Virus record (IMG/VR): IMGVR_UViG_3300027777_001370 | Location: 1 to 28,310 of that record | Source of the DNA: a virus | Length of the DNA: 28,310 bases | Strand: one strand, 5' to 3' | Part shown: positions 6,716 through 25,731 of the stretch, piece after piece | Numbering within the stretch: the first letter of the stretch is position 1 | Layout: every line of letters starts with the position of its first letter | The notes under the pieces: generated by a model | Told to the model about the DNA's origin: nothing | The model's input: the letters and a program-made list of their open reading frames with translations, nothing else | The model's database searches: none | Made by a program: the position numbers and the translations under genes

Positions 6716-6925
6716 TTAAATTATATCTTTCACAATCTCCGCTTCAGGAATTTCAATTAAAAATAAGAAAGTATCGTCGTTGTTATGTTTATTTCTAACG
6801 ACAACATCACATCTAAAGTGTTCTTTTATATCGTTAATGTACCCATCTTTAATTTGATGAGGTTTCATTTTTTTATACACGTAATATAGTTTATCTTGAT
6901 ATGTAACCAACTCCTTTGGGACCAT
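6716..6925 (-). CDS. Small uncharacterised protein
   Basis: This 69-residue protein has alternating strands (KLYYVYKKM, CDVVVRN, TFLFLIEIPEAEIV) suggesting a small beta-sheet domain. I do not recognise a family. It is the last gene of a three-gene minus-strand operon and overlaps the nuclease start by 1 base, so an accessory role beside the secreted nuclease is possible but unproven. Confidence 0.6.
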   Translation of the reverse strand: MVPKELVTYQDKLYYVYKKMKPHQIKDGYINDIKEHFRCDVVVRNKHNNDDTFLFLIEIPEAEIVKDII

Positions 6926-7557
6926 TATTTGAATTTAAAATGTGTTAATTTTGTTATATCTGAAACTGTAACTTTATGTGATTCTAAACCAGACGGTTTA
7001 TCAGGAGTATTATCAAATTCATAAGCAAGATATTCTTTTGTTTTTACAATATAAACCACCTTCCAACATTTGGTAGGAACAGATACTGTACCTATTTTCT
7101 TTGCGACACCTACACTACCACACCAAATATGAACGGAATCTTTATCCATTGCAATTTGTCTTTCTAACGTTTCTAATGTTTTCCAATCTCCAGCATTTAA
7201 AGAATGATATTGTGGTGTCATATTTGAAAAATAAAAACATTCATCTTGAACATCTTGTGTTTGACATTGATTCTCGGCCGCAGGCATATTATGACCCCTA
7301 TCAGTCCCTGAACCCTTGTAATCCTCAATTAAATCAGTTTCATTTGGTAATGATGGGTCAGGTTTAAAATTATCTTTTCTGGCCAATGGTGTGGGACAAC
7401 CAACTTTTACCTTAGTAATCCACCACTCCACCATTACAGGATATTTTTTTGATTTTGAATAATGTGACGTGTAATTTGTATGTTTTAAAACCACCACATC
7501 TTGTGCCTGTAATGTTAATGTAAATAATAACCCAATAACCACTAAAAATTTTTTCAT
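6925..7557 (-). CDS. Secreted DNA/RNA non-specific endonuclease
   Basis: The 210-residue protein starts with a Sec signal peptide (MKKFLVVIGLLFTLTLQAQ), with the Bacteroidetes-style QAQ end. The catalytic DRGH is at residues 86-89, followed by NMPAAEN, then SNMTPQYHSLNAGDW, which supplies the metal-binding Asn and matches the NUC1/Serratia-nuclease beta-beta-alpha-metal family. Four or more Cys residues suggest disulfides after export. It should degrade DNA and RNA in the periplasm or outside the cell. It overlaps the upstream kinase-like gene by 4 bases. A secreted nuclease in a phage could salvage nucleotides or damage competing phage DNA, which is inference. Confidence 0.85.
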   Translation of the reverse strand: MKKFLVVIGLLFTLTLQAQDVVVLKHTNYTSHYSKSKKYPVMVEWWITKVKVGCPTPLARKDNFKPDPSLPNETDLIEDYKGSGTDRGHNMPAAENQCQTQDVQDECFYFSNMTPQYHSLNAGDWKTLETLERQIAMDKDSVHIWCGSVGVAKKIGTVSVPTKCWKVVYIVKTKEYLAYEFDNTPDKPSGLESHKVTVSDITKLTHFKFK

Positions 7558-10389: not shown

Positions 10390-12090
10390 ATGAATATTAC
10401 CGATTTAGTGTACGACGTACTAGTTGAGGAAGTAAAAAATAAGAAACAATTTGCTTTCCTATTGAAAAAATGGTATGGTGAATCCCCAAATTTAGATCAA
10501 ATAAAAGAAGCTGAGAAAAATTTAGAGTTCTTTTTTGAGAAACAAAAAGGATTAACAATGAATAATCCAGGTGTTCTTTCATTCTTACATCGTTGGAATG
10601 GTGTTCATGGTTTAGGTGTTAAAGTACAGAGTTTGGATGATAATGGACAACCCATAACTAAATTAGTACCATTTAAATTTGAAGACATTAATGACCCTGG
10701 TCGTTATACTTTAGAACAATTTGAGGATTTACTTGATGAATTTAGAGACAGAACATTAAATGGTAATCAAGAAGATGAAGATGAATTTAAAGGTAAATTA
10801 AATGCCACCCCTGGAAAAATTGCAGCATCAAAGAAATATTGGTTAGGTGATAGAGATATGGTAATTGGTGAGGAAGGTTTTAAAGTACATTATGTCCCCG
10901 ATGCTAGAGAAGCCATTAAATACGGATTTTACCAAGAATTAGTTACTGAAAAATTAGGTGGTCAACAATGGTGTGTAACGGGTAGAAACACACCAGAATC
11001 ACGTGGTAACATGTGGGGAACTTATAGACCTAAAAGAACATTTTGGTTTGTAATTGATGAGTCTAAAAATCCTGAGGAGAACAAAGACCCAAATGTTTAC
11101 AAATATTATTTATGTGCGTTACAATATTGTGAAAATGATAGAAACCCATATAAAAATAATGAACTATACACTGGTTTTAAAATGACCAGTATGTTGAATG
11201 ATGGAGATAATCCAAAAACATGGGAAGAAGTTGTTAGGATATATCCTCAATTAGCAGAACATAGAGATTCATTTACATATCAAACTTATGACGAATCTGA
11301 GTTGTTTGATAGAGATATAATTGGTCGTATCAATGAAATACCTGGAAATAGATTGGAATTTGCATTACTTAGAAGAGATTTAAAGAAAGCTTATATTGAT
11401 AGAGCAGGTGTCATTTCAAGTGCAAAATCTTGGAGACATATGACAACAGATTTGAGAAATTTATATATAATCTCAACAACACCAAGTAACGTTATTGATA
11501 AATTTCAGTCATATGAATTAATGAGTGAAATTAGAAAAGTTGGTAATGAATTTAAATTATTAGATAATACTTTAAGGTCAATAGGTTCAAGAGTTGACGA
11601 ACATACGGGTAGAATTATTAATCAAAAATTGTCAGATGTTGGAGTTGGATTTATCTACGAACATTTAATGTCAAATGAGTTTATAGTTGCTAGAGTAAGT
11701 ATAGATAATAAAAATTTAGTTTTATATGAAAGTAAAAAAACAAAGAAATTTGGTTTATATTATAATGATAAAGCATCGTGGGTTAAACAAGACGGTATAG
11801 TTTTTGAACCTAATTATGTTCAAATGGGTACCGACTTATATAAAGATAATGAAGGTAAAACTTACATTGTTGAGACATATACAACTGGAGGTGATCCAGA
11901 TAATTCAAGTTTATATTGTGTCTTTCCAATTGAGGAAAGTGATGATGCGAGTGGTCATTTTGTCACAGCACAAAAATTTGAGTTATTAAAAACTAAAATA
12001 CAACCTAATGATGAAAATGATGATGATGGTAGTGTAAAAATTAGTGATTTTGATCCTGAAACGGATGTGGATATTAAAGAAATGAATTAA
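10390..12090 (+). CDS. Class B leader protein with Trp-Cys motif domain
   Basis: This 566-residue protein starts MNITDLVYDVLVEE, with candidate cleavage at L11-V12-E13. Around residues 160-245 it has a region with Trp194-Cys195-Val-Thr-Gly, a WGTYRPKRTFWFVIDE strand pair, and an aligned LCALQYC strand. The same layout (TEWCTT, then GPLFIMINK) occurs in the class B protein at 13330-15180, so the two appear to be distant paralogues. I have seen this Trp-Cys pattern in phage hypothetical proteins but cannot name its function. The C-terminal part is acidic, with many Asp. It has its own box 4 bases before the ATG and a bidirectional terminator after it. Confidence 0.7.
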   Translation: MNITDLVYDVLVEEVKNKKQFAFLLKKWYGESPNLDQIKEAEKNLEFFFEKQKGLTMNNPGVLSFLHRWNGVHGLGVKVQSLDDNGQPITKLVPFKFEDINDPGRYTLEQFEDLLDEFRDRTLNGNQEDEDEFKGKLNATPGKIAASKKYWLGDRDMVIGEEGFKVHYVPDAREAIKYGFYQELVTEKLGGQQWCVTGRNTPESRGNMWGTYRPKRTFWFVIDESKNPEENKDPNVYKYYLCALQYCENDRNPYKNNELYTGFKMTSMLNDGDNPKTWEEVVRIYPQLAEHRDSFTYQTYDESELFDRDIIGRINEIPGNRLEFALLRRDLKKAYIDRAGVISSAKSWRHMTTDLRNLYIISTTPSNVIDKFQSYELMSEIRKVGNEFKLLDNTLRSIGSRVDEHTGRIINQKLSDVGVGFIYEHLMSNEFIVARVSIDNKNLVLYESKKTKKFGLYYNDKASWVKQDGIVFEPNYVQMGTDLYKDNEGKTYIVETYTTGGDPDNSSLYCVFPIEESDDASGHFVTAQKFELLKTKIQPNDENDDDGSVKISDFDPETDVDIKEMN

Positions 12091-12994: not shown

Positions 12995-13333
12995 TTATTT
13001 GTTGTGTGTTCCACACCAAGGACAAATTGGTAATGATTTCTTACCCTTGTGTGTTGTTTGAGTAAACTTCTTTCTACAATTTTTACAAGTTAAAAATTTA
13101 GCGTCTTTATTTAAATCCTCAATACTTTTAACTTGTTTATCTGTTAAAGGTTTTTCTTCCTCAATCCTATCGGCGAATTTATATCTCAAAGGATTAGACA
13201 TTCTTTCTGATTTGCTAAATAATCTTTTCTTTCTTGTAAATGCAAAACTTCTACTTCTCTCGTCGATGTCTTCACCTTTATTAACCAACTTCTTTAAATT
13301 CTCTAATTGACCTTCTGATATTAATATTCTCAT
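12995..13333 (-). CDS. Class A leader protein with C-terminal zinc ribbon
   Basis: The protein is 112 residues and starts MRILISEGQLENLKKLVNKG, a divergent class A leader with a candidate site I23-D24-E25. A basic middle (residues 30-52, with FTRKKRLFSKSERM) leads to a zinc ribbon at the C-terminus: CKNCRKKF, then about 14 residues, then CPWCGTHNK. It could bind nucleic acid. It overlaps the upstream large class B gene by 4 bases and is likely expressed from that gene's box at 15186-15193. Confidence 0.7.
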   Translation of the reverse strand: MRILISEGQLENLKKLVNKGEDIDERSRSFAFTRKKRLFSKSERMSNPLRYKFADRIEEEKPLTDKQVKSIEDLNKDAKFLTCKNCRKKFTQTTHKGKKSLPICPWCGTHNK

Positions 13334-15180
13334 TTTATAAAAGACATTAACTTTAATTTATTTTCATTCAAATTCAATTGATAATTAGTTAAGTATGAAA
13401 CTAAATTATCTATTTTAACTGATTTGTTATAAAAATTTTGTTTATTGTCTTTGTTCTCATAATCAATTTTAATTGATTCATTATCACAATCAATCGACAT
13501 TGATTTAATTCTCACAGTAACATGTTCATTGTCAAACCTATCCGTACCATATCCACCATTAAAAAATTTATCAACAATGTTATTTAATTTTTTTCTAAGT
13601 TCAATACAATGACGACTTGTATTTGGGTCAGATATTATTTTATCAAAATACTTTTTAGTTTCTCTTGTTATATAATTATTGTCACCGTATTTTGGATATT
13701 TTATTTCAAAATTATAAACAGGTTCGTCTATTTCTGTGGTTATATTATATTGACTTATATAGCTGTCCAAAACATCTTGTAATGGCCATTCATCTCCCCC
13801 AATATATTTAATTTCTTTTTTGATTAAAAAACGAACTAAATGGACTACAGAAAAATTAAATTCATCATCATTACCGAAGGATAAATATTTTTCAATATCA
13901 TCCGCCTCCCTATCGTTTTCCTCTTCATAACTTCTATAACTTAAATCAGTTACATCATCAACAAAATAATCTTTCAACTCTTCGTTAGCTACGTAATTTG
14001 GAAAATAATCTTTAGTAAATTCCTCAATACTTTTAACACCTAATTCATTTGATAATTCATATTTGTTTTCATTATAATAATTTGTAAAAATTCCTTCAAT
14101 ATCTGAAGAATACTCTTCTTGTTCGTAATATTTGTTTTCCAAATCATTATGTACCCAATCCCATCCGTTACTAGCTTCACCTCTATATTGATTAATACTG
14201 TCACTAACACCTGTAGCCTCACCAATATTAATATCATCAACTTGTATTACTAGTCTTCCATTATATACGTCCACAGAACCATTTCTAGTGTCATCATTAA
14301 TTAAATCTTCTAACGCATCATTATCCAAATTTAAAATTGCTACCACTAATGGATTGTCAATAGTGCCTATTGATTTTTTAATTACCTCCATTCCATCTTC
14401 ATCTGGTAATATACTTATTCTCGCAATTTCACTTTTCACTTCTTGTTCCGATGTTTCTCTAACTAACGATGGAAAGAAATAATATTTAATCTCATCTTTA
14501 CCAAACCAAAATTCAGTTGTGTTAATTCTTTTATCATTCTTATCCATATATTGATTTGTCTCAAAATGGAATTGGTATTTATCCAAAGGATTAGTTTTAT
14601 TAATCATTATGAATAATGGACCTTTAACGTGATGTGATGGGAAATAATTCGTTCTATCTCTATATTTTTTATTCAAACAATATTCACCCCAAGTTGTACA
14701 CCACTCTGTGTTAACTCCTAAATAAGATGACCCCTTTTCGGTCAATGGTTGGTAAAATGTCCAATCTTCACCAGTGTGTAATAATTTATAATCGGTACCT
14801 AAAATCAACGAATCTAATATCAATTTAAAATCTAACGTATCCTCAATAATATATTGTTTAACAATATTGTATAAGTCACCAAGTTGTCTTATTTTACCAA
14901 TTTCCACGGGTATATTATGTTGATAAACATATCCCAAATATTCTTTTGCTTTAACCAAATCTTCAATTTGTAACGTACCCTTTTGGTATAACGATAATAA
15001 TAATTTTGAGTATTTTCCTAAATTTAATAAATTACCAACCCCATCTACATTTGATCTTGGGTCAGATATTACAATATTAATAAAGGTCTCATATGGTATT
15101 TTAGAATAATACTTTTGGTGTATTTCCTGACCACTTAACTCAAGTAGTAATTCCTCCATTAAAACATCTAAAATCTTCAT
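13330..15180 (-). CDS. Large class B leader protein with Trp-Cys motif domain
   Basis: The protein is 616 residues. Its start MKILDVLMEELLLELSGQEI fits the class B consensus with a candidate site at L7-M8-E9 and a second at L12-L13-E14. Residues 125-225 contain GEDWTFYQPLTEKG, Trp160-Cys161-Thr-Thr, GPLFIMINK and KYQFHFETNQYMDKND. This is the same layout as in the 10390-12090 protein and probably one folded domain. The rest is acidic and unrecognised, with long helical stretches. It is first of a two-gene operon with a zinc-ribbon class A protein, and has an exact box 5 bases before the ATG. Confidence 0.72.
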   Translation of the reverse strand: MKILDVLMEELLLELSGQEIHQKYYSKIPYETFINIVISDPRSNVDGVGNLLNLGKYSKLLLSLYQKGTLQIEDLVKAKEYLGYVYQHNIPVEIGKIRQLGDLYNIVKQYIIEDTLDFKLILDSLILGTDYKLLHTGEDWTFYQPLTEKGSSYLGVNTEWCTTWGEYCLNKKYRDRTNYFPSHHVKGPLFIMINKTNPLDKYQFHFETNQYMDKNDKRINTTEFWFGKDEIKYYFFPSLVRETSEQEVKSEIARISILPDEDGMEVIKKSIGTIDNPLVVAILNLDNDALEDLINDDTRNGSVDVYNGRLVIQVDDINIGEATGVSDSINQYRGEASNGWDWVHNDLENKYYEQEEYSSDIEGIFTNYYNENKYELSNELGVKSIEEFTKDYFPNYVANEELKDYFVDDVTDLSYRSYEEENDREADDIEKYLSFGNDDEFNFSVVHLVRFLIKKEIKYIGGDEWPLQDVLDSYISQYNITTEIDEPVYNFEIKYPKYGDNNYITRETKKYFDKIISDPNTSRHCIELRKKLNNIVDKFFNGGYGTDRFDNEHVTVRIKSMSIDCDNESIKIDYENKDNKQNFYNKSVKIDNLVSYLTNYQLNLNENKLKLMSFIK

Positions 15181-19484: not shown

Positions 19485-20369
19485 TTATATGGATATTGTT
19501 TTTGGTTCTTTCTCTTTGTGGAATTTTTTAACGTATTTCTTAAAGTCAGTCAATCCTCCTCTTTGTTCAACCCATTCTATTGGATCGATATCTCTAAATC
19601 CAAATTTACCTTCATTATCTGCAAGATAAACTGTGCCACTTGAAATTGAATTTAGTTTCATACCAACTTCCTCAAGTACTTTTATTATACTTGGTTCCTT
19701 AGTTTCCCATTTTTCAATAAATTCAATGATTGATTCTTTCCATAAAATATCAACAACTCGAATGTTATTTACCACAGTTTCATTCCAAAAACTATCTCTA
19801 CCATTTCTAAGTGTTTTAATATCTGTAAAATGTTCACGTATTTCCTTTGCATGTTGTTTAACTAATCCATCAACCCATCTATAGTAGTTAATTAAATCTT
19901 TTGGTTCGTTAATATTATTAAAATCATTGTGTTCTGAAAATTCTTTTACAATTTTATCAATAATGTTCTTTGGTAAAATATGAAGTGTAATCCATCTTCT
20001 TCCTGATTCGTCAGGTCCACTCATTACATCTGCCGGAGCGTCAAATTGTAAATCCCCTTCTATTTGATATAGTATTCCACCTTCAGTTTGTATGCCTTTA
20101 ATATCCTTTAACATATTTTTTTCCATATATCTAAAAGTGGATAATGCCTTTCTTGTACCGACCATCTCACCCATCTTATCAATACCATTAACGTCTCCAA
20201 TATGAAATGTTGTGACTCTTTGTTTACCCCATATATAATTTACAATTGATGGAGTTAAAGGTATATCTAACTTATCAATATGGGATTGCACATTAGACAA
20301 CCACTTCAGTTCATTTAACTGTTGTTGTTCAATAAGTTTTAATTGTGATTCTGTAACCTGAAGCTTCAT
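19485..20369 (-). CDS. Class A leader protein with GTRKALSTFR domain of unknown function
   Basis: The 294-residue protein starts MKLQVTESQLKLIEQQQLNE, with a candidate site L18-N19-E20. The body has IVNYIWGKQRVTTFHIGD, then GTRKALSTFRYMEKNM (near residues 71-86), then GGILYQIEGDLQF, DAPADVMSGPDESGRRWITLH, and helices to the end. The GTRKALSTFR and SGPDESGRRW blocks look conserved-motif-like, but I cannot name the family; an ADP-ribosyltransferase-like or nuclease activity is possible. It has an exact TATTTATA box 4 bases before its ATG, which overlaps the end of the next gene upstream. Confidence 0.75.
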   Translation of the reverse strand: MKLQVTESQLKLIEQQQLNELKWLSNVQSHIDKLDIPLTPSIVNYIWGKQRVTTFHIGDVNGIDKMGEMVGTRKALSTFRYMEKNMLKDIKGIQTEGGILYQIEGDLQFDAPADVMSGPDESGRRWITLHILPKNIIDKIVKEFSEHNDFNNINEPKDLINYYRWVDGLVKQHAKEIREHFTDIKTLRNGRDSFWNETVVNNIRVVDILWKESIIEFIEKWETKEPSIIKVLEEVGMKLNSISSGTVYLADNEGKFGFRDIDPIEWVEQRGGLTDFKKYVKKFHKEKEPKTISI

Positions 20370-20384
20370 TAGATATAAATATTA
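20365..20384. repeat. 20-base repeat copy 1 over a start codon and box
   Basis: TTCATTAGATATAAATATTA is identical to the sequence at 20902-20921. Each copy spans the ATG region and the TATTTATA box of a class A leader gene. Confidence 0.8.
20374..20381 (-). promoter_or_regulatory. TATTTATA box, 4 bases before ATG 20369
   Basis: An exact TATTTATA on the gene strand lies 4 bases before a class A leader start. Confidence 0.6.
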
Positions 20385-20906
20385 AAAATTAATATAAACC
20401 CAAGCATTCTGTTTATATCTACCATATTTCTTAAGTGATGCTGTCGTTCTATGCCACCCTTCAACCAAATCGTATTTACCATCTTTTGTTAAATAAACAA
20501 TAATAGGTTCAGAAGAGATTCCATTTGTATCAAGTTTGGATTGTTGTGTATTATGTCTTTCAGAATCGTTAGGTACTTGTTGATTAATACTGCCACCGAT
20601 TTTACTTTTTAAACCTTGTTGATCCCCATCAATAAAAATGTCTATTGATACATCCAATACTCTAAATTCCCAATATCCTTTACCAAATCTTTGAATCCAA
20701 TTATCAAAATATGTCTGACCAAGTTTTTTATATACGTTATTATCAACACTCATTTCCTTTGTGTTTTTATACATCCAATCCCTAATGACATACTCGGGCC
20801 AATTTACTCCAGTATATTCCTTACCCTTCCTAACCAAATAGTTCAATAACCCATGACGAGTTTCGGTGATAAGTTTATATTGTGATTCTGTAATTAGGAT
20901 ATTCAT
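20382..20906 (-). CDS. Class A leader protein with ParB-like EGWHR motif
   Basis: The 174-residue protein begins MNILITESQYKLITETRHGL with a candidate site I13-T14-E15. Later features are WPEYVIRDWMYKN, DSERHN, EPIIVYLTKDGKYDLVEGWH and RTTASLKKYG. The final part resembles the ParB/Srx nuclease-like fold, in which a DG(x)HR-type loop ends a strand pair. The class B protein at 25237-25731 has the same body order, so they appear to be homologues with different leaders. It has an exact box 4 bases upstream. Function could be nuclease or CTPase-like binding. Confidence 0.72.
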   Translation of the reverse strand: MNILITESQYKLITETRHGLLNYLVRKGKEYTGVNWPEYVIRDWMYKNTKEMSVDNNVYKKLGQTYFDNWIQRFGKGYWEFRVLDVSIDIFIDGDQQGLKSKIGGSINQQVPNDSERHNTQQSKLDTNGISSEPIIVYLTKDGKYDLVEGWHRTTASLKKYGRYKQNAWVYINF

Positions 20907-20921
20907 TAGATATAAATATTA
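20902..20921. repeat. 20-base repeat copy 2 over a start codon and box
   Basis: This is identical to 20365-20384 and holds the same box and start-codon arrangement, for the ParB-like leader gene. Confidence 0.8.
20911..20918 (-). promoter_or_regulatory. TATTTATA box, 4 bases before ATG 20906
   Basis: An exact TATTTATA on the gene strand, with the same 4-base spacing as the preceding gene, lies in the second copy of the 20-base repeat. Confidence 0.6.
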
Positions 20922-21590
20922 TGCTAAATCAAACAAAATGATTTCGGTTTCTTCGTTAGGTGTGATATTGATTTTACTTTCTTCCTCAAAACTTAAACCG
21001 TCCCCCTCAATTAAAGGTATGTCGTTTAATGTGGAAGTTCCTGATACTACGTATAGGTAGTACCTACGAGACGAATTAAGGTCAAAACTAAAGTTTTCTG
21101 TGAATATACCCGATAACAATCTTGCGTCCTGTTTTATGGGTAATTTATCCGTTATGTCACAAAACCTATTTAATTTATCTTCTCTTGTGAATTGATACCA
21201 CTCGTGTATTGGTTCTGTGTCTTTTACATTTGGTCTTATCCATAACTGTAAATAACGATTTGGTGTGTTGGTTGTATTTCCTTCTGTATGTCTAATACCT
21301 GAACCACAGGACATTCTTTGAACTGAACCTGCTGGTATGTCTAATATCTTTCCGTGACTATCTGTATGTCTACAAACCCCCTCAACAACATAACCGAATA
21401 TTTCCATATTCTTATGTTCGTGCATTGCCACTTGACCTCTTGGTTGAACTCTATCGTCATTGATTGTTTGTAAATAACTGAAGTTAATATATTTCGGGTC
21501 AAAGTATGGTGGGAAACTAAACGTTCTATACGAATTGATCCAACTTTTCTTTGGGTTTGCTCTTGTATGTGCCGGTCTATGGATTATCAT
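20919..21590 (-). CDS. Pirin-like cupin protein
   Basis: The 223-residue protein has a bicupin layout. The N-terminal cupin holds MHEHKNMEIFGYVVEG (His57, His59), HTDSHGKILDIPAGSVQRMS and GIRHTEGN (His101, Glu103). These four metal-binding residues line up with those of human pirin (His56, His58, His101, Glu103). The C-terminal cupin (residues 130-223) lacks clear metal ligands. Some pirins have quercetinase activity and others bind metal or regulators. It starts 5 bases after the ADP-ribosyltransferase-like gene's stop and is likely co-transcribed with it. Its role in a phage is unknown. Confidence 0.88.
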   Translation of the reverse strand: MIIHRPAHTRANPKKSWINSYRTFSFPPYFDPKYINFSYLQTINDDRVQPRGQVAMHEHKNMEIFGYVVEGVCRHTDSHGKILDIPAGSVQRMSCGSGIRHTEGNTTNTPNRYLQLWIRPNVKDTEPIHEWYQFTREDKLNRFCDITDKLPIKQDARLLSGIFTENFSFDLNSSRRYYLYVVSGTSTLNDIPLIEGDGLSFEEESKINITPNEETEIILFDLA

Positions 21591-21595
21591 ATAAT

Positions 21596-22117
21596 TTATT
21601 TAATTCCTGAAAGATATTCATCTATTTTTTTTTGAATTTCAGGATTATTTCCTGTATAAATGATATTTGTAAGATATTGTCTCAATGGATATATTCTATC
21701 CGTTAATACTCTTTCCTCTACTTCAGGGTTTTTACGACTACGTGGTATTTCGTCCATCCAAGCTTTATTTGCAATTGTTCCATAATCAAAAGGAACCACC
21801 CTATAACGTGATTTAAGACGACTTCTATCTGCAACAAAGATTACGTTCAACATATCGGGTTTAATACGAGGACCGTCACCAGAATTACCAATAGACCCAT
21901 CAGGTATAAAGTTCTTATCACGAGTAAATGAAACCATCGTTTTATGTTTGGATTGTTTTAATGTTCTATCTAAATTTAAAACCTCCTCGTATTGTTTTGA
22001 CCCTACCAACATATTACCATTCATGATGTCTAAAGCACGTTCTTCAGTTGTATGGTGATAGATTGGAATTGACACCATATCTCTTAACTTCTCCAATATA
22101 ACGTCCTGTAGTTTCAT
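21596..22117 (-). CDS. Class B leader protein, ADP-ribosyltransferase-like
   Basis: The 173-residue protein starts MKLQDVILEKL, with the class B site I7-L8-E9. The body has IYHHTTEERALDIMNG (His21, His22), MVSFTRDKNF (61-70), NVIFVADRSRLKSRYRVVPF, and EVEERVLTD (132-140). An N-terminal His, a Ser-Phe-Thr strand and an ExE-type segment follow the order of ADP-ribosyltransferase folds, including DarT-like and Alt-like proteins. I infer NAD-dependent modification of a host target, possibly after injection. It has an exact TATTTATA box 4 bases upstream and pirin follows on the transcript. The fold call is moderate. Confidence 0.62.
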   Translation of the reverse strand: MKLQDVILEKLRDMVSIPIYHHTTEERALDIMNGNMLVGSKQYEEVLNLDRTLKQSKHKTMVSFTRDKNFIPDGSIGNSGDGPRIKPDMLNVIFVADRSRLKSRYRVVPFDYGTIANKAWMDEIPRSRKNPEVEERVLTDRIYPLRQYLTNIIYTGNNPEIQKKIDEYLSGIK

Positions 22118-22220: not shown

Positions 22221-22499
22221 TTATTTAATTTTATCTACCGAAGTTGTGAACTTGTGACACTTATCTGTTACTTTACCCGCATCGTGGTCTGTAATAACCA
22301 ATTTGACATTATCATAATGAACCGTCATATCAGGGTGGTGATTTTGTTTATCCGCAATCTTCATAACTTCATTTACAAAAGGTATAACACTTTTATAGTT
22401 TTTGAAGTAGAATGTTTTAATAAGTTTATTATTAATTTCCTCCCAATTACTTTTATTCATAAGCCTATTATGTTGTCTTTCAGTTATTAAAATCGTCAT
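22221..22499 (-). CDS. Class A leader fused to pterin-4a-carbinolamine dehydratase
   Basis: The 92-residue protein starts MTILITERQHNRLM, with class A features but no clear [L/I]xE site downstream of the leader motif (only I5-T6-E7 inside it). The rest is a full pterin-4a-carbinolamine dehydratase: NWEEINNKLIKTFYFKNY, FVNEVMKIADKQNHHPDM (His54, His55), and VKLVITDHDAGKVTDKC (His72). It dehydrates 4a-hydroxytetrahydropterin in pterin recycling, and homologues have a second role in dimerisation. The box lies 2 bases before the ATG and a terminator follows. Catalytic residues look intact. Confidence 0.85.
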   Translation of the reverse strand: MTILITERQHNRLMNKSNWEEINNKLIKTFYFKNYKSVIPFVNEVMKIADKQNHHPDMTVHYDNVKLVITDHDAGKVTDKCHKFTTSVDKIK

Positions 22500-22691: not shown

Positions 22692-23345
22692 TTACGAATT
22701 GAATTGGTTTTTACCCAATATTTTATTACTTAGTGTCGTATCAGGATTGTTCATATTTTGCATATCCTTCATACTAATTGTTGATTCAGGAGTTCTACTC
22801 GCTGTGATTCCCATTATCTTATCAAATATTTGTTGAGTAACCCCTGTTTGTCTAACGTACTCAGGTGCCACTTTCTTAACCGCAGCATCTGTTAAAGTAT
22901 AAAATTGTCCTGTTGGTTTAACTCCAAGAGATGCTTGAATCATTTTAATATTATTACCTGATTGACCAAATTTAAGTGGTACTACTTCATTAGGTACAAA
23001 TTTCATTTTTTGAGTAACGACTTGAGGTGTCATGTTAAAATATTTAACAGCCTTAGGATTTGAATCAAACATTAAGTTTACAATGCTAGCCTGTGCTCCA
23101 CATTCATAACTTCCTTTATTTCCTTTAACGTCAGCAAATCTACCATTATTATAGAACACAAATGTTTCACCATTTTTTCCGGTGATTTGTTTCTTTTGTT
23201 CCATGGATTTCAACACACATCCTATGTTCAAACTTTTTTGTGGTGTAATTTGATTAGGGTTACCCATTGGTGCCGATTGTTCTTTAATGACTTTAGAAAC
23301 AATATTTCTTAATTGTTCTTCTGTTAATTTGATTATTCTTTTCAT
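22692..23345 (-). CDS. Class A leader protein with peptidoglycan-binding-like domain
   Basis: The 217-residue protein starts MKRIIKLTEEQLRNIVSKVI and has a candidate site I20-K21-E22. The middle (residues 40-105) contains GCVLKSMEQKKQITGKNGET and strands around FVFYNNGRFADVKGNKGSY, with two Cys. Residues 124-175 have VPLKFGQSGNNIKMIQASLG and VKPTGQFYTLTDAAVKK, which resemble a PG_binding_1 repeat. The tail is Asn- and Ser-rich. The box lies 6 bases upstream and a terminator follows. A packaged wall-contacting role is inference; the domain resemblance is moderate. Confidence 0.75.
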   Translation of the reverse strand: MKRIIKLTEEQLRNIVSKVIKEQSAPMGNPNQITPQKSLNIGCVLKSMEQKKQITGKNGETFVFYNNGRFADVKGNKGSYECGAQASIVNLMFDSNPKAVKYFNMTPQVVTQKMKFVPNEVVPLKFGQSGNNIKMIQASLGVKPTGQFYTLTDAAVKKVAPEYVRQTGVTQQIFDKIMGITASRTPESTISMKDMQNMNNPDTTLSNKILGKNQFNS

Positions 23346-23378: not shown

Positions 23379-25118
23379 TTAAATATCATTTAATGTATTC
23401 ATTAATGATAATTTGGGTCCAGTTCTATTTGGTTTTTGAATTCTTTGACTTAAATCAACTCGATCTTTATGTACCGCTTCTTTAGGTAATTGTCTTTCTG
23501 GATAATCACCCAAACGTTTTATTTCCCTTGCTTCAACACTTTTTAATGCATCTAATAATAATTTATCATATGTACCCTTTTTCAAAGTATACGGTACACG
23601 AATCAATCCCAAACCAAGATTATTAGTTTCAATAAATTGGTTTTTTAAATTATCACTTTCATATAGTATATTATAATTTAATTGTCTGGTGTATTCTGAT
23701 TTAGCAAACCTAGGTTCAAAATGTTGTTCACCATCATATTCAATAAGGATATTAACATACCCTGGTTCAGGTATATAAAAATCAAACTTTTGATTACCTA
23801 ATTCTTTGAATTGTTTTTCTGTTTCAAATTCGTAATCTTCTTCAGATAATAAATTTTTAATGTGAATTTGATTTTTTGATTCTTGACATATTGGGCAACC
23901 TTGTCCTGCAGAATGGTTAGAGGGAGTTTGTAGAAATATTCCATGCTCTCTACCGTTAGAACCTATTTTGTGACATTCAATGTGAATATCATCGGTCATT
24001 CTTTTAAATTCACTATCAAGATTTGGATAAGAATATGGTTTTTCATTTTCATCTTTAAATCTTTCTTTATTTAAATTATAAGTTGTATTTTTAAATTTAT
24101 TTAGTTGGTTAACTCTTTTACATTCTTTACATTCAATTGATCCATATTTGTTTGTAGATCCCCAAATTGTTGAGGGTTGTTTATATACTACCGGAAAAGG
24201 TGTTTTTCCGTGTAACGTACAACCAAGGGTAACGGGTGAATTTCCTCCAATATAATCCGATAATAAAACAAATCTATCATTGTAGAGTTTACGGACTTTA
24301 TCCATAAATTCTTTTTCTTTAACCGCTATTCTATTACATTCGGGACACAAAGGTGTACCAGTATAAAAAGTTTGAGCTTTTTCCCTTGAAATTTCTTGAT
24401 TATGTTTTACACATTTTATTTTACCATTTTTTAATGGGGTTTCATATTCCATATTTTTCCAATCATACCAACTTATTGGGATATGGTATAATTTCATCTT
24501 TTCTTTGACTTTTTTAATGAATTCACTACGAGAAAGATTACTCAATGATTGTCTAACTATTCCTTGTTCTTCTCTACATTTTTCACAACCAACATATGGG
24601 TAGTTATCATATCTATAGTCTCGATATATATGACTTGCTGGATTTGTAATAGTTTGTTTACCGTGAGGTTTTTTATTTGAACCAAGTTTAGGACAATAAA
24701 AATCAAATCCATTATTAATACCTGTATATCTTCTTAAACCCGATTTATTGTAGATATATAAAGGATTTCCATTTTCATCTTTCCATATTTCCTCAGCCTT
24801 ATTATAAAAATTATTTACTTCTGAATTTCTTTTATTTAAAATCCTATCTTTTTTACATCCAACACATCCTTCTGAACCAATACCACCTTTAGTAAGGTAT
24901 TCAACTTTTACAGGAAAATCAATATTATGTTTATTACAATGAGCATTTACTGTTGCTCTTTTTCTAAAATCTTCCAAATTAGGAAAGTCATAAAGACAAC
25001 CTCCTTTATAAGGAAAAAGTCCTTTCATACTGTTTAAAAAACCTTCCTTTGTTACCACATTATAACCCTCACCCAATGATGAGTTCTCGTCTTCCAATAT
25101 AATATCTAATAATTTCAT
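23379..25118 (-). CDS. Class B leader protein: zinc-ribbon repeats plus Vsr/PD-(D/E)xK-like nuclease
   Basis: I chose the ATG at 25118 because the protein then begins MKLLDIILEDENSSLG (class B, site I7-L8-E9) and a TATTTATA box lies 7 bases upstream; an ATG at 25178 would run through that box. The 579-residue protein has about five Cys/His zinc-ribbon repeats (for example CNKHNIDF to CVGCK, CVKHNQEI to CPEC, CTLHGKTPF to CKEC, and GQGCPICQ). The C-terminus has FDFYIPEPGYVNILIEYDGE followed by QHFEPRF, the layout of Vsr-like and phage homing-type nucleases. It probably cuts DNA. A packaged nuclease is an inference from the leader. Confidence 0.78.
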   Translation of the reverse strand: MKLLDIILEDENSSLGEGYNVVTKEGFLNSMKGLFPYKGGCLYDFPNLEDFRKRATVNAHCNKHNIDFPVKVEYLTKGGIGSEGCVGCKKDRILNKRNSEVNNFYNKAEEIWKDENGNPLYIYNKSGLRRYTGINNGFDFYCPKLGSNKKPHGKQTITNPASHIYRDYRYDNYPYVGCEKCREEQGIVRQSLSNLSRSEFIKKVKEKMKLYHIPISWYDWKNMEYETPLKNGKIKCVKHNQEISREKAQTFYTGTPLCPECNRIAVKEKEFMDKVRKLYNDRFVLLSDYIGGNSPVTLGCTLHGKTPFPVVYKQPSTIWGSTNKYGSIECKECKRVNQLNKFKNTTYNLNKERFKDENEKPYSYPNLDSEFKRMTDDIHIECHKIGSNGREHGIFLQTPSNHSAGQGCPICQESKNQIHIKNLLSEEDYEFETEKQFKELGNQKFDFYIPEPGYVNILIEYDGEQHFEPRFAKSEYTRQLNYNILYESDNLKNQFIETNNLGLGLIRVPYTLKKGTYDKLLLDALKSVEAREIKRLGDYPERQLPKEAVHKDRVDLSQRIQKPNRTGPKLSLMNTLNDI

Positions 25119-25236: not shown

Positions 25237-25731
25237 TTAACGAATACCCACATAGACAGGATAATCAAATCCATCAGGGTTCATAATAAATAACTGAATC
25301 AATCGGTGCCAACCCTCCCACATTTCCAATTTACCCTTTTCAGAACGGTTCATAGCCATAATCAATGGTTTCTTGCTACCAGACTTAAGGAGTTCCAATT
25401 GTTTCTCATGACGTTCCTTATCACCATCAAATAGGGTTGCACCCTTAATACGAGGTCCAATGTTGTGTCGTGACTCAGAATCCAACTTATCCATGGTAAT
25501 ATGAAGGTTAGGGAAGAATTTCCATTTCATCTTCTTAAGGTCTTGAAAGTATTGGTAATTAGGGTGGGTGGGGTTCATCATCTCAGGATTAAATCTGGCG
25601 GTGGTATAATAAAGGTCATTAAAGACCCATTCTGGCACATCTGGAAGTTCCTTTCTCAATTCCCTATATAATCCACCACGTAGTTCGTGGAGGTCTAAAA
25701 CGGTCTCATATAGGGTATCGGTCAGGTTCAT
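25237..25731 (-). CDS. Class B leader protein with ParB-like EGWHR motif
   Basis: The ATG at 25731 gives 164 residues starting MNLTDTLYETVLDLHELRGG, class B with a candidate site L7-Y8-E9; an ATG at 25755 would run through the box. The body has VPEWVFNDLYYTTARFNPEM, DSESRHNIGPR, KKPLIMAMNRSEKGKLEM and WEGWHRLIQLF. This is the same order as the class A protein at 20382-20906 (WPEYVIRD, DSERHN, then the strand and EGWHR). The EGWHR loop resembles ParB/Srx-fold proteins. The TATTTATT box lies 3 bases upstream. Confidence 0.72.
   Translation of the reverse strand: MNLTDTLYETVLDLHELRGGLYRELRKELPDVPEWVFNDLYYTTARFNPEMMNPTHPNYQYFQDLKKMKWKFFPNLHITMDKLDSESRHNIGPRIKGATLFDGDKERHEKQLELLKSGSKKPLIMAMNRSEKGKLEMWEGWHRLIQLFIMNPDGFDYPVYVGIR

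Follow-up and report, generated by a model that had tools for sequence, protein, structure and literature searches.

A candidate head-packaged ADP-ribosyltransferase with a short LxE leader encoded in a 28-kb virus fragment

The window analysed in this study, a 28-kb virus fragment, is the whole stretch of 28,310 nucleotides of IMG/VR virus record IMGVR_UViG_3300027777_001370 (positions 1 to 28,310). On its minus strand, from 22117 to 21596, there is an open reading frame (ORF) of 173 amino acids with an ATG start, whose protein (P0001) consists of a short N-terminal leader and a body resembling an ADP-ribosyltransferase (ART). The motifs on which the original prediction relied are in place, namely the leader MKLQDVILE (residues 1–9), HHTT (21–24), SFTRD (63–67) and EVEERV (132–137). 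Near-copies of the protein, 92–95% identical, were found at 11 IMG/VR loci, and since they differ mostly synonymously (28–40 synonymous and 13–23 nonsynonymous nucleotides), the gene is real and under purifying selection. Its features are listed below, the residue counts being those of the 50-member alignment described further on.

21596..22117, minus strand: coding sequence of 173 amino acids, leader plus ADP-ribosyltransferase-like domain (11 near-copies, mostly synonymous change)
22091..22117, minus strand: class B leader MKLQDVILE, residues 1–9, with its I-L-E end as a candidate prohead-protease site
21650..22066, minus strand: ART-like domain, residues ~18–156 (predicted model m45536bca4e5f and Foldseek)
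22055..22057, minus strand: His21, predicted NAD-binding His of strand 1 (YHxT), in 49/50
21917..21931, minus strand: SFTRD, residues 63–67, strand-2 motif S-x-[TAS]-R (S63 in 50/50, R66 in 49/50)
21710..21724, minus strand: EVEER, residues 132–136, ExE strand with E134 as predicted catalytic Glu (E132 and E134 in 50/50, R136 in 49/50)

The AlphaFold model of the window protein, with a predicted local distance difference test (pLDDT) value of 79.9 and a predicted template modelling (pTM) score of 0.76, was compared with the PDB using Foldseek. Its top 21 matches were DarT, KptA/Tpt1, CC0527 and one Rhs-toxin complex, the best being six DarT chains (expectation value, E, 1e-3 to 8e-3; probability 0.99–1.00), and cholera toxin, pertussis toxin and EcPltA appeared lower in the list. 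A relative (L051) whose leader, MKLHDILLE, is nearly the same as that of the window protein gave a model with a pLDDT of 88.2, and its top 32 PDB matches were all ARTs or ART-like proteins (KptA, DarT, pertussis, pierisin, guanine-specific ART, Scabin and CC0527). A fold unrelated to ARTs, which would have contradicted the original prediction, was not what the two models showed, their top PDB matches being almost exclusively ARTs. As an independent check, hhalign was run against an alignment of nine plasmid DarTs, with 20 column shuffles as control; the score was 32.8 (P = 3e-4), shuffled columns giving at most 16.9, and the aligned part was mostly the N-terminal YH-x-T region. By eye, the conserved strands of the family match the DarT segments HFT, LSVSFPN and QAEV, and we infer from this line-up that E134 is catalytic. 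The protein is therefore most likely, as far as the models tell, a remote ART variant with a predicted active site formed by H21, S63/R66 and E132-x-E134, in which E134 would be the catalytic residue.

Searches with P0001 gave no match in Pfam, weak and unrelated matches only in the PDB (phmmer), and nothing in plasmids (tblastn). A PHROGs match to the methyltransferase phrog_10057 at 0.35 was taken as chance. The first relatives detected by tblastn, both weak, were in Dickeya phage JA11 and in a 636-kb uncultured phage. The wider family includes phages of Salmonella, Salicola, Alishewanella, Pseudomonas, Vibrio, Rhizobium and Microcystis, together with 59 IMG/VR loci, and its members, where annotated, are hypothetical proteins throughout. 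Among the cultured carriers are Microcystis phage Mel-JY01, Salicola phage SCTP-2, Alishewanella phage Slickus01 and Vibrio phage K566. In an alignment of 50 members, with identity down to ~20%, S63, E132 and E134 were invariant (50/50), H21, R66 and R136 were kept in 49/50, Y112 in 47/50, and Y105 and T23 in 45/50 each. The family thus has both the strand-1 His (49/50) and the ExE Glu (50/50) by which the ART superfamily is recognised. Of the active-site residues proposed in the original prediction, H21, S63, E132 and E134 proved to be conserved, while the position of His22 is variable (Y/F/H/S/G), which leaves His21 as the sole candidate of the HH pair. A 14-sequence profile searched against the PDB ranked DarT1 first, with an E of 0.64.

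With respect to the leader, 57 non-redundant family domains were examined, counting positions back from the YH motif. L or I was found at −9 in 46/57 domains and E at −7 also in 46/57, and the complete (L/I)-x-E-type motif (hereafter LxE) ended at −7 in 45/57, the background being 1.6% per position. The residue following it was G, S, A or R in most domains. In T4, the protease gp21 cuts after L/I-X-E, the capsid-targeting sequence comprises ~10 residues and the Alt propeptide 7 (PMC9026906). MKLQDVILE is likewise a short N-terminal peptide ending in L/I-x-E. Several leaderless members (Dickeya, Sen-NF and L026) begin at M..LYH, about where a cut would leave the mature N-terminus. In G001, a genome of 335,630 bases syntenic with the window, 10 ORFs bear a strict class B leader of the MKLxD(I/L)(I/L)xE type (some of them being paralogues), as against 0.1 expected in shuffles, and its ART gene lies within a run of leader-bearing genes at ~40.6–50.1 kb. 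The idea that the LxE peptide is part of the ART fold was rejected, because leaderless members do without it and because non-ART modules are also separated by it.

The presence of a T4-type S77 prohead protease was examined in records of at least 100 kb, comprising 19 LxE-leader carriers and 8 others. The protease was found in 16/19 carriers vs 0/8 others (Fisher p = 7e-5; 3e-4 when thinned for relatives), p-values that are generous because phages share ancestry and are not independent. In T4, gp21 takes off a 65-residue propeptide from gp23 (PMC9026906, and general knowledge). The major capsid proteins of S77-positive carriers have candidate sites at the gp23 position, namely SYLINE/AAV, QQLLKE/AS, KQLISE/AN, SYMLNE/ST, KQLLKE/ST and RSLME/SA (the slash marking the putative cut), and in the gp23-type major capsid protein of G001 the stretch ENQASYLINE/AAVADASG is at the expected processing place. 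It must be noted that S77 and the gp23-type capsid with LINE/A were found in the relative G001, the window being a fragment without these genes. The head-targeting leader of the original prediction gains support from the LxE at a fixed spot before the domain, from its co-occurrence with the S77 protease and from the LxE at the capsid processing position.

The same LxE peptide also precedes internal ARTs in longer chains, three times in L101/G016, twice in L087, and in L064, L065, L071, L074, L086, L089, L094 and L096. One such chain, G016:C1:161237-166213 (L150), has 1,659 amino acids, with six N-x-E-S-K-S-L-L-K-E-type peptides between seven modules, three of which are ARTs; judging from its sequence, this chain looks like a prohead-protease polyprotein. 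In L094:233-3676, a cytidylyltransferase-like module, DUF5661, a Cu/Zn superoxide dismutase and an ART are in one chain with LxE-type boundaries. We lean slightly towards the view that there is a widespread and hitherto unrecognised class of head-packaged ARTs (H / SxxR / ExE) in distantly related large phages, bearing LxE leaders or delimiters. Inside the head, the prohead protease would then serve as a polyprotein protease, releasing from such strings the individual enzymes to be injected, both ARTs and effectors of other types (cytidylyltransferase-like, Cu/Zn superoxide dismutase, acetyltransferase-like).

Two further loci with ARTs were observed. L030:3001-4614 has two differing ART-like domains, the second being PARP-like (PF00644, E 0.0016, below the cut-off). 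Microcystis phage Mel-JY01 has a PF03496 ART (W06:C1:23170-23550, E 2.4e-7) flanked by the gene for the S77 protease on one side and that for the major capsid protein on the other, and also three ARTs of the new H / SxxR / ExE family, one of them truncated.

The window genes at 19.5–27.2 kb mostly have class A or class B leaders. Several of the leader-bearing neighbours of the ART gene, together with one more distant gene, are as follows.

13330..15180, minus strand: protein with class B leader MKILDVLMEELLLE
19485..20369, minus strand: neighbour with class A leader MKLQVTESQLKLIEQQQ
20382..20906, minus strand: neighbour with class A leader MNILITESQYKLITETR
22221..22499, minus strand: pterin-4a-carbinolamine dehydratase with class A-type leader MTILITERQHNRL (PF01329, E 7.8e-19)
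22692..23345, minus strand: neighbour with class A leader MKRIIKLTEEQLRNIVSKVIKEQ
23379..25118, minus strand: neighbour with class B leader MKLLDIILED

Given the class A-type leader at its start, the pterin-4a-carbinolamine dehydratase is possibly head cargo too. A pirin without a leader (20919-21590) adjoins the ART gene. The leader-bearing products of 20382-20906 and 25237-25731 have a common GWHR near the C-terminus (EGWHRT and EGWHRL, respectively) and are ParB-like by eye. Those of 10390-12090 and 13330-15180, large and also leader-bearing, have by eye a common WC(V/T)T-type segment and gave no match in Pfam. The product of 6925-7557 starts in the manner of a signal peptide, contains DRGH and by eye is like a secreted non-specific nuclease. 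In addition, the small genes of the run L116 (G001:C1:9000-17500) have in common an N-terminal peptide of a third type, M-x-x-FKF(F/L), in which LxE is absent.

Taken by analogy with T4, these data make it likely that the window gene encodes a head-packaged ART working like Alt and matured by a protease. The 9-residue MKLQDVILE, like the T4 capsid-targeting sequence, would bring the protein into the prohead core, where a gp21-like S77 protease would cut after (L/I)-x-E and the freed ART domain would stay in the head. The domain would then be ejected with the DNA and, as infection begins, would transfer ADP-ribose from NAD+ to a macromolecule of the host. As to the target, the nearest folds of the models (DarT, KptA/Tpt1, pierisin and Scabin/ScARP) would make a nucleic acid slightly likelier than a protein, which is a guess.

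Several points weigh against this interpretation. The Foldseek E values are only ~1e-3 and the template modelling (TM) scores 0.4–0.5, so that the match to ARTs remains remote; the best Pfam ART match of any member is Tox-ART-HYD1, with an E of 0.002 in 6/50 members, and the 50-member profile found no sequence in the PDB. In the window leader itself, ILE is a few residues more upstream than the family norm. To the generous p-values of the protease comparison must be added that three leader carriers (G004, G010 and G019, two of them ~110-kb fragments) have no detected S77, that the S77 match of W01 is below the cut-off and that G007, with the leader MKYIKQFE, was scored as leaderless. The same modest Pfam matches and low TM-scores would suit a small phage protein that is no ART and resembles one by chance or convergence, but two models with almost exclusively ART matches, the profile similarity to DarT and the conservation on ART active-site strands make this very improbable.

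Alternatively, the ART might be made during infection and act within the same cell, as ModA/ModB or a toxin does, its leader staying uncut as a helix of the fold or a regulatory tail. The window model does draw the leader as a helix, and leaderless members occur in phages without S77, two of them adjoining a DNA ligase gene, so the ART domain can work unpackaged. Nevertheless, in the better model (L051) the confidence of the leader goes down to ~61, the LxE leader is common to unrelated neighbours in G001 and tracks the presence of S77, and the same peptide stands between non-ART modules of the G016 chain, all of which renders an uncut leader distinctly unlikely. A packaged enzyme of other chemistry, either a NADase/NAD phosphorylase or one that, like KptA, has RNA ends or small molecules as substrates, seems unlikely as well. 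Such a role agrees with KptA/Tpt1 being one of the two nearest folds and with the NADases and RNA-repair enzymes included among ART clades (Iyer et al., PMC9503650), yet the invariant E-x-E and the strand-1 His form a transferase-type pattern, and the H-H-h clade, of which KptA is a member, has a profile without the catalytic Glu (PMC9503650).

If the packaged ART is confirmed, head-packaged ARTs would have come from a second, DarT/KptA-like branch and would be common in large environmental phages. Additionally, cargo could be listed from sequence alone through the LxE leaders and delimiters of S77-bearing genomes, and the first-injected proteins of large phages would become a testable list of enzymes.

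T4 Alt, which is packaged in the head, has been the reference example of an ADP-ribosyltransferase that a phage injects. The window family shares with it the predicted ART fold class, a short putative propeptide at the N-terminus bearing a gp21-type L/I-x-E site, and, in the carriers, S77 and a gp23-type capsid. It differs in having His on strand 1, where the R-S-E clade of Alt has Arg, in a window leader of 9 residues instead of 7, and in its nearest folds, which are DarT and KptA. Membership in the T4 Alt/VIP2 family was rejected, because His21 is where Arg is required and no profile match was obtained: nothing was found for PF03496 in G001, nor did P0001 match any Pfam profile, ADPrib_exo_Tox included. 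The suggestion that the protein is an independent equivalent of Alt fits these differences.

DarT is the best fold match, and its strand 1 (YH-x-T), the motif of its strand 2 and the strand with Q/E-x-E align with those of the family. The profile similarity is weak, with no match to the DarT Pfam profile among the 50 members and remote similarity by hhalign only. Unlike the window protein, DarT is a host toxin with an antitoxin (DarTG) and no leader, and it has neither the S-x-[TAS]-R nor the E-x-E-[ED]-R of the window family. KptA/Tpt1 RNA 2'-phosphotransferase, the second-best fold match, is of the H-H-h clade without a catalytic Glu, whereas the family has an invariant E-x-E. Of the H-Y-[EDQ] clade pattern, with His on strand 1, Tyr on strand 2 and an acidic residue or Gln on strand 5, the family has the His and the Glu, and on strand 2 a conserved Ser and Arg but no Tyr.

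Iyer et al. (2022, PMC9503650) report that jumbo phages often encode ARTs and that ~44% of these are in head-type gene contexts; therefore, the general idea of head-associated phage ARTs was already known. In the literature searched, neither the leader-plus-ART family, nor the leader and delimiter evidence, nor an H / SxxR / ExE family was described, and the supplements of PMC9503650 may list members. Phage polyvalent proteins and MuF-fused ARTs (Iyer et al., 2017, 2022) also have ARTs and other effectors in one chain and are thought to be injected, but their delivery was deduced from MuF/portal fusions and gene order (PMC9503650), and here the deduction is based on leaders and delimiters of the LxE type that fit an S77 protease. 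Finally, T4 IPI–IPIII bear, on unrelated bodies, a ~10-residue N-terminal targeting peptide that ends in a gp21 site, as the window protein appears to do, with the differences that the leader is here of the MKLxDIIxE type and that the body is an enzyme domain.
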